DNA from: Thermococcus stetteri
GTDB lineage: Archaea; Methanobacteriota_B; Thermococci; Thermococcales; Thermococcaceae
Length of the DNA: 64,000 bases
NCBI RefSeq assembly: GCF_017873335.1
Contig: NZ_JAGGKB010000002.1
Location: 62,001 to 126,000, forward strand
Reading direction: 5' to 3'
Positions 48,981 to 56,606 of the stretch are shown here, piece by piece. Both the position numbers and the translations under genes were made by a program. Under the pieces are notes generated by a model. It worked only from the letters and a program-made list of their open reading frames with translations, made no database searches and was not told the origin of the DNA. Position 1 is the stretch's first letter; each line of letters begins with the position of its first letter.

Positions 48981-49038
48981 CGGTCAGCCCCGCGAAACCT
49001 CTTCACAGCTCAGGGGGCTCCAGACTCATCATCCCGCG
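48981..49038 (-). ncRNA. C/D box guide RNA
   Basis: On the minus strand, in order: box C ATGATGA (49032-49026), a 12-nt guide GTCTGGAGCCCC, box D' CTGA, a 3-nt spacer GCT, box C' GTGAAGA (one mismatch to RTGATGA), a second 12-nt guide GGTTTCGCGGGG and box D CTGA (48987-48984). Flanks CGGG and CCG can form a short terminal stem. A TATA box (ATTTAAAAG, 49066-49058) lies about 25 nt before box C. Archaeal C/D RNAs direct 2'-O-methylation five nucleotides upstream of box D or D'. By that rule the targets are a C in GGGGCUCCAGAC and a G in CCCCGCGAAACC. The rest of the 300-bp gap shows nothing. Confidence 0.88.
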
Positions 49039-54769: not shown

Positions 54770-55381
54770 CTAACGGCCGGTCATCAGCAGGTATATCCCT
54801 ATGACTCCCTGCACCATCATCTGGGCCCCTATCGCCATTATGAACAGACCTATAATCCTGATGGTTATGCTGAGGAAGCTCTTGTTCACGGACTTCATCA
54901 TGTATAAGGCTATGAACATTGAGAGGGCAACGAGGATTATGGCTATGGCGGTGGCGGAGAGTGAGACGAAGTAGCCGTACTCGGCCGTTAGGGTTATAAC
55001 CGCGGTTATGGTGGCGGGACCGGCTATGAGCGGCATGGCCACCGGAACGGCCGCTAGGGCCAGTATGTCCTTCTCCCTCTTGAGAGTGAACATTCCACCG
55101 CCCTCTAGGGCCTCAAGGCCTATCTTGAAGAGGACAAAGCCACCTGCCACCTTGAGGGCGTTTATGTCGATGTGGAAAATCTCCTGAAGGATTATCTGGC
55201 CCGCTATGGCAAAGCTCGCGAGGAGGACGAAGCCTATAAGGTTTGCCCTGATTATGAGGGCCTTTATGTCCTCTATGTGGAAGTCCTCGCGGAGGAAGGT
55301 GACAAGGAGTATCTTATCGCTCGGGTCTATCATGATGAGCATAAGCAGAGCTGAACTCAGTATCGTCCCTATTTCGCTCAT
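54770..55381 (-). CDS. MarC-family membrane protein
   Basis: 203 residues, six membrane helices, with the family motif [18 protein letters not shown]. MarC proteins are of uncertain function (once linked to multiple antibiotic resistance). No ribosome-binding site lies before the ATG. The TATA box at 55401-55411 sits about 25 nt upstream, so the mRNA should be leaderless. Confidence 0.88.
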
Positions 55382-55400
55382 GTTTCCCGCTGGGCAAAGG

Positions 55401-55411
55401 AATTTAAAAAG
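55401..55411. promoter_or_regulatory. TATA box apparently shared by marC and a divergent guide RNA
   Basis: AATTTAAAAAG is nearly symmetrical and stands 25 nt from the marC ATG on one side and about 25 nt from box C of the C/D RNA on the other. Both transcripts fit it and no other TATA is close. Confidence 0.55.
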
Positions 55412-55429
55412 CTATGCCAACTCCCGCTG

Positions 55430-55484
55430 CGATGATGACACCGGCACTGGCTGAAAGGTGATGAGCACTCGGTTGTCTGAGCTA
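55430..55484 (+). ncRNA. C/D box guide RNA
   Basis: In order: box C ATGATGA (55432-55438), a 12-nt guide CACCGGCACTGG, box D' CTGA (55451-55454), spacer AAG, box C' GTGATGA (55458-55464), a 12-nt guide GCACTCGGTTGT, box D CTGA (55477-55480). All four boxes are perfect. The TATA box at 55401-55411 places the start near 55431. By the N+5 rule the targets are a U in CCAGUGCCGGUG and a C in ACAACCGAGUGC. The RNA fills the gap between marC and the antiporter gene, its 3' end touching the latter's stop. Confidence 0.93.
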
Positions 55485-56606
55485 CCTCGAGTAGAGCCAC
55501 TTGAGGAGAGGTGGCGTTATTATCGTCGTCGTGAAGACCATCAGAATGGCCACTGTTAGGGCGTCGCCACCGACCAAACCGCTCGCCATCGCAACGGAGA
55601 GCATGGCAAGCTCCACACCCATCCTCGGTATCATCCCAACCCCTATCCTCAGAGACGCCCCCCAGTCAAAGCCGCTCAGCCTGGCACCGAGGCCACAGCC
55701 GAGAATCTTGCTCAATATTGCCCCGATTGTGTAGATAACGGCGAAGAGGCCCGCATGGAGTATGTAGCTCAGCTCGACCCTCATGCCGACCTCGACGAAG
55801 AAGAGCGGTATGAAGAGGGAATAGCCGAGCGTGTTGACGTGCTCCACTATCTCCCTCTTCCTCGAGCTCTGACCGAGGGCGAGGCCCGTCAGGTAAGCCC
55901 CGAGGATCGAGGCAAGGTTCAGGTGCTCGGCGAGGGCCGCGAAAACTATCATGAAGATTATCGCGAAGGATGTGCTGGTTTCGGGCAGGTCTATCCTAGA
56001 GATTGCCCTGAAGGTTCTCTCGACGAACTTCGGGCCGAAGTAGAGGAAGACGAAGAGGAAAGCCGAGACCTCGATTATTATCTCGGCCAGCACGTCGTAC
56101 TCGACCCTTCCCTCAGCTAAGATGGATATTGCCACCGTGAGCACGAGGATTCCGAGGACGTCGTCCACAACCGCTGCCGCCAAAATCGTCGTCCCCTCCC
56201 GGGTGTTGAGCTTCCTGAGCTCCATGAGGACCTTCACCGTGATGCTCACGCTCGTCGGCGTCATCATAGCGCCGTAGAGGATCGCCTCGTGGGTTGGGAC
56301 GAAGGGAAAAGCGGCTATGAAGCCGAAGACGAAGGCCACGGCAACGCCAACACCCGCAACTACAACGCTGGGCCTTCCCACGCGCTTGAACTCCTCGAGC
56401 TCGCTCTCAAGGCCCGCTAAGAAGAGGAGCATCAGGACGCCTAGGTTCGAGAACTCCTGGATGACGGGCTCGGTCTCGAAGAATATGCCCATGATGAAGC
56501 CGCCTATCAGCTGTCCGAGGACGACTGGCTGTCCAAGCCTCTCGAAGATGTAGCCCATAATGTTGGCCGTTGCAAGCATGAGGGCTATGAGGAGGATTAT
56601 TTCCAT
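55482..56606 (-). CDS. Kef-type monovalent cation/H+ antiporter (second of a tandem pair)
   Basis: 374 residues, about twelve membrane helices of the CPA2 family. Conserved blocks are GQLIGGFIMG, FLAGLESELEEFKRVG, AVVDDVLGILVLTVAIS (paired acidic residues of the ion site) and GMIPRMGVELAMLS. It probably exchanges Na+ or K+ for H+. It shares its plan with the gene before it, so they arose by duplication. GAGGTGGTATA precedes the ATG. Confidence 0.9.
   Translation of the reverse strand: MEIILLIALMLATANIMGYIFERLGQPVVLGQLIGGFIMGIFFETEPVIQEFSNLGVLMLLFLAGLESELEEFKRVGRPSVVVAGVGVAVAFVFGFIAAFPFVPTHEAILYGAMMTPTSVSITVKVLMELRKLNTREGTTILAAAVVDDVLGILVLTVAISILAEGRVEYDVLAEIIIEVSAFLFVFLYFGPKFVERTFRAISRIDLPETSTSFAIIFMIVFAALAEHLNLASILGAYLTGLALGQSSRKREIVEHVNTLGYSLFIPLFFVEVGMRVELSYILHAGLFAVIYTIGAILSKILGCGLGARLSGFDWGASLRIGVGMIPRMGVELAMLSVAMASGLVGGDALTVAILMVFTTTIITPPLLKWLYSR

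Follow-up and report, generated by a model that had tools for sequence, protein, structure and literature searches.

Warman et al. (2021), as cited in PMC10268837, reportedly described divergent transcription at symmetrical promoters of bacteria and archaea. There, symmetry of the core element is the cause of two-way initiation, as it might be at the locus described below, and the phenomenon is a general one, not specific to this locus. In Pyrococcus furiosus, start-site data and in vitro transcription revealed that a single TATA box can direct initiation both ways, with starts separated by 49-50 bp, which was ascribed to a symmetrical TTTAAA core and the symmetry of TBP (PMC6640164). The BRE-TATA-BRE promoter of PF1918 from that study resembles our locus in having a single near-symmetrical TTTAAA box and opposite starts (predicted ones in our case) ~50 bp apart. 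However, the P. furiosus reverse product is thought to be a non-functional antisense RNA (PMC6640164), whereas the one described here, known from sequence alone, would be a functional guide RNA. Among archaeal C/D sRNA genes, one survey found a TATA-like motif at ~20% and an overlap with the 3' end of a gene at 25% (PMC7994747).

We analysed the gap between a marC-family gene and an exchanger gene in a 64,000-nucleotide stretch of Thermococcus stetteri DNA, hereafter the window. The features of the locus, in window coordinates, are as follows.

54770..55381, - strand: marC-family (NAAT) membrane protein gene, predicted leaderless (Pfam MarC, E 2.3e-30)
55395..55400, + strand: BRE side of the putative sRNA promoter, CAAAGG, either weak here or not in register
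55401..55411, unstranded: near-symmetrical TATA element AATTTAAAAAG, centre 55405.5, scoring 12.8 bits towards marC and 6.7 bits towards the sRNA
55412..55418, - strand: BRE side of the marC promoter, GGCATAG, which most Thermococcus-type genomes retain whether or not they carry the sRNA
55428..55483, + strand: C/D box sRNA, dual guide (RF00095), boxes and guides near-invariant in 55 genomes
55432..55438, + strand: C box ATGATGA, exact
55440..55450, + strand: D' guide ACCGGCACTGG, 11/11 pairs with 23S 1957-1967, predicted Um1961, conserved in orthologues
55451..55454, + strand: D' box CTGA, exact
55458..55464, + strand: C' box GTGATGA, exact
55466..55476, + strand: D guide CACTCGGTTGT, 11 nt with one G-U, pairing with 23S 1983-1993, predicted Cm1987
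55477..55480, + strand: D box CTGA, exact
55482..56606, - strand: Na+/H+ exchanger (antiporter) gene (Pfam PF00999, E 4e-69)

A preliminary description of this DNA had proposed a C/D RNA with four exact boxes that fills the intergenic gap, next to a leaderless marC, and a TATA box about 25 bp from both starts. These claims agree with our results. The Rfam family RF00095 (snoPyro_CD) matched window 55428-55483 on the + strand at 52.9 bits against a gathering threshold of 45 (E 3.2e-8), and the C (RUGAUGA), D (CUGA) and internal C' and D' boxes are all exact and in order. Promoter and sRNA together occupy the 100-bp gap between marC and the exchanger gene, and the 3' end of the sRNA overlaps the exchanger stop codon (55482-84) by 2 nt. 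The centre of the TTTAAA core (55405.5) lies 24.5 nt from the A of the marC ATG (55381), and its distance to the C box, taken at the first base, is 26.5 nt. This centre-to-ATG distance is 24.5-25.5 nt in nearly all Thermococcus-type (g1) genomes, with or without the sRNA, and its constancy supports a leaderless marC; no GGDGRD site was found between the TATA box and the marC ATG (55382-55400).

The RNA shares with the RF00095 sRNAs of Pyrococcus and Thermococcus the order of its boxes, the 3-nt spacer between D' and C' and the dual antisense elements, upstream of D and D', that pair with nearby sites in 23S rRNA. Nothing essential sets it apart from them; its host context, divergent from marC, is peculiar to some Thermococcaceae. 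Single-strand folding gave no signal (z = 0.86), which is expected because C/D RNAs are held by proteins. The sRNA is an ordinary archaeal guide RNA, and no part of the locus belongs to a kind new to archaea. As a housekeeping sRNA it would bind L7Ae, Nop5 and fibrillarin.

Both guide targets put forward in the preliminary description were found in 23S rRNA. The target of the D' guide, CCAGUGCCGGU, is present exactly over 11 nt and pairs entirely by Watson-Crick pairs, and that of the D guide, ACAACCGGGUG, forms 11 pairs including one G-U. The fifth-nucleotide rule predicts methylation at Um1961 and Cm1987 (in the numbering of this genome's own 23S), and the two sites are 26 nt apart. Shuffled guides matched the observed pairing scores in 1% and 2% of trials, values that leave the 26-nt proximity out of account. 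Among the 30 of 45 tRNA genes that were scanned, no target was as good as those in 23S. In a pairwise alignment to an E. coli 23S, Um1961 corresponds approximately to U1840, and Cm1987 falls at a gap near 1865-1883. We take the predicted target region to be helices 66-68 of domain IV. The sRNA would thus guide 2'-O-methylation at two positions of this domain; methylation is known to be concentrated in 23S helices 68-71 (PMC7994747). In 61 of the 94 genomes of the family, representing five of six genera, the two-site target stretch occurs exactly, and most of the others are fragmented drafts. Nucleotide 1 of the D guide did not covary with the variable 23S base opposite it (15/38 Watson-Crick; A versus C test, p = 1). 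Separately, we noted that NZ_AP027616.1, a 2.9-kb circular E. coli 'plasmid' record with a 23S rRNA gene as its sole annotation, has the appearance of an assembly artefact.

To compare the sRNA among relatives, 85 Thermococcaceae marC upstream regions were collected together with relocated copies from a Pyrococcus-like genus (g12), yielding 55 parsed sRNAs. Nearly all guide columns had an identity of 0.9-1.0 over these orthologues, compared to 0.25-0.44 for the 3-nt spacer and the flank. Near-invariant boxes and guides beside random spacer and flank indicate selection on the boxes and guides, and thus a real gene. Only 9 of the 55 have an exact sequence at every one of the four boxes. The sRNA is present in 38 of 58 g1 genomes and missing from the other 20. 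In g12 the same guide pair is relocated to a different protein gene, at its 3' end, and the TGA inside the C box is likely the stop codon of that gene. In g11 the sRNA lies upstream of marC and on the same strand as marC, inverted relative to the window. In one genome (G005), an insertion of ~1.4 kb interrupts the D' guide; it has a hairpin close to one of its ends and carries a 358-aa TnpB-related protein (TIGR01765, E 3e-23), which matches guided TnpB weakly. This genome is a natural knockout of the sRNA. Since the sRNA has been relocated, inverted or interrupted in relatives, it is dispensable and its coupling to marC has not been kept. Two further orthologues upstream of marC (G080 and G075) have ~33 extra bases between the C box and the D' guide as well as degenerate boxes, and are apparently decaying.

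The loss or breakage of the sRNA in about a third of the g1 genomes, once by insertion into the D' guide, together with the weak promoter score on the sRNA side, could mean that the copy in this genome is itself decaying or non-functional and that the box works for marC only. However, this copy retains both guides and all four boxes intact and in agreement with the consensus, and we give this explanation hardly any credence.

Promoter strength was scored with a BRE-TATA matrix built from 241 upstream regions of this genome, taken from 400 kb of stretches plus the window. The difference between 12.8 bits towards marC and 6.7 bits towards the sRNA arises because the BRE differs: its part amounts to 2.3 bits on the marC side and to -3.0 bits, or is out of register, on the sRNA side, and it is stronger in other genomes. 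The sRNA-direction score lies at the 39th percentile of the upstream regions, and shuffled sequences reach 6.3 bits in 10% of cases. No other + strand box of similar strength was found close upstream of the sRNA. In all 38 sRNA-bearing g1 genomes the best promoters on the + and - strands are the same box, and the C box lies 23.5-33.5 nt from its centre.

The preliminary description had argued from the near-symmetry of the box that one TBP site may serve two directions. Two-way use is plausible and the geometry for it holds, but near-symmetry lends it no support: when 108 strong promoters of this genome were scored in reverse at the same box, 33% reached 6.7 bits or more, and boxes of this kind also stand, at an unchanged distance from marC, in the 20 g1 genomes that lack the sRNA. 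Because near-symmetry is common among the promoters of this genome and is kept where the sRNA is missing, it is no evidence for sharing. Genomes with a TTTATAAA-type box scored 6.85 in the sRNA direction with the sRNA and 6.65 without it (p 0.42). For TTTAAA-type genomes the reverse scores were 7.8 and 5.8, respectively, with only four genomes lacking the sRNA (p 0.04, uncorrected for relatedness).

In g13 and g14, the marC box and the C box are separated by only 8.5-17.5 nt, which leaves too little room for a start at the former. An additional strong box, with a score of 9.4-13.5 bits to which the BRE contributes 5.6-7.2, was detected in all seven sRNA-bearing g13 genomes and in the g15 genome, 15-17 bp from the marC box and, in g13, ~28 nt before the C box; the two sRNA-bearing g14 genomes have no clear second box. 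In contrast, no second box was found in g1 genomes, and there the distance between the marC box and the C box never falls below 23.5 nt. The contrast between g1 and g13, which represents few evolutionary events, suggests sharing of the box as the best reading. In Thermococcus-type genomes, including this one, transcription of the sRNA would most likely start from the marC TATA box read in reverse. The orientation of TFB would choose between marC and the sRNA, and extra nucleotides would be trimmed around the protected C/D core.

Alternatively, the sRNA may have no start of its own at the box and may be cut from longer antisense transcripts begun inside marC. Many C/D sRNAs of archaea are processed from host transcripts and do without a separate promoter (PMC7994747), and a promoter-like box antisense in marC (window 54986-55003, + strand) scores 11.4 bits, more than the box near the sRNA. 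This box is not conserved, however, with scores of -5.4 to 9.4 at the same place in 29 relatives, and it was rejected as a general source of the sRNA. Moreover, among the seven other RF00095 sRNAs of this genome, four are preceded by strong boxes at a distance of 23-25 nt, so promoters of their own are common among them. Processing from antisense transcripts is therefore unlikely.

The preliminary description suggested that occupancy of the box in one direction might limit the other. A start at the shared box could also serve regulation, if opposed preinitiation complexes competed for the one TATA box and selection favoured setting marC against the supply of sRNA. The arrangement is kept in 38 of the 58 g1 genomes, and the g13 and g15 promoters, 15-17 bp apart, would interfere with each other too. 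Against this, neither the box nor its distance to marC has changed in the 20 g1 genomes that lack the sRNA, and in sister genera the sRNA is inverted, uses a separate box or occupies the 3' end of a gene. We know of no functional link between marC and the sRNA, and we regard selected coupling as very improbable. Sharing is probably an opportunistic use of a naturally symmetrical TATA box, not a regulatory link between marC and ribosome modification.

Collectively, these results make it fairly likely that the locus encodes a housekeeping 23S-guide sRNA initiated from the reversed marC TATA box, with TFB orientation choosing the product. The further proposal, that in ~38 Thermococcus-type species one TATA box gives two functional products, a leaderless marC mRNA and a guide RNA, partitioned by TFB orientation, seems to us evenly balanced. 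The locus combines elements of known kinds, and novelty would lie solely in proof that one box yields two functional products. The guide RNA by itself is routine. If the proposal is true, the locus would exemplify, in conserved form, a two-way archaeal promoter with a reverse transcript that is a useful gene product and not noise. If start sites confirm it, the locus would offer a compact natural system for studying how the orientation of archaeal TBP and TFB is chosen when both products matter, in which species that have lost one product could serve as controls. Confirmation would likewise point to an ability of non-coding RNA genes to occupy the unused side of a TATA box that is symmetrical.

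The window contains a second C/D sRNA at 48982-49034 on the - strand, which matches Rfam sR23 (RF01138) at 74.9 bits and has a strong promoter-like box of 11.8 bits 25 nt upstream.
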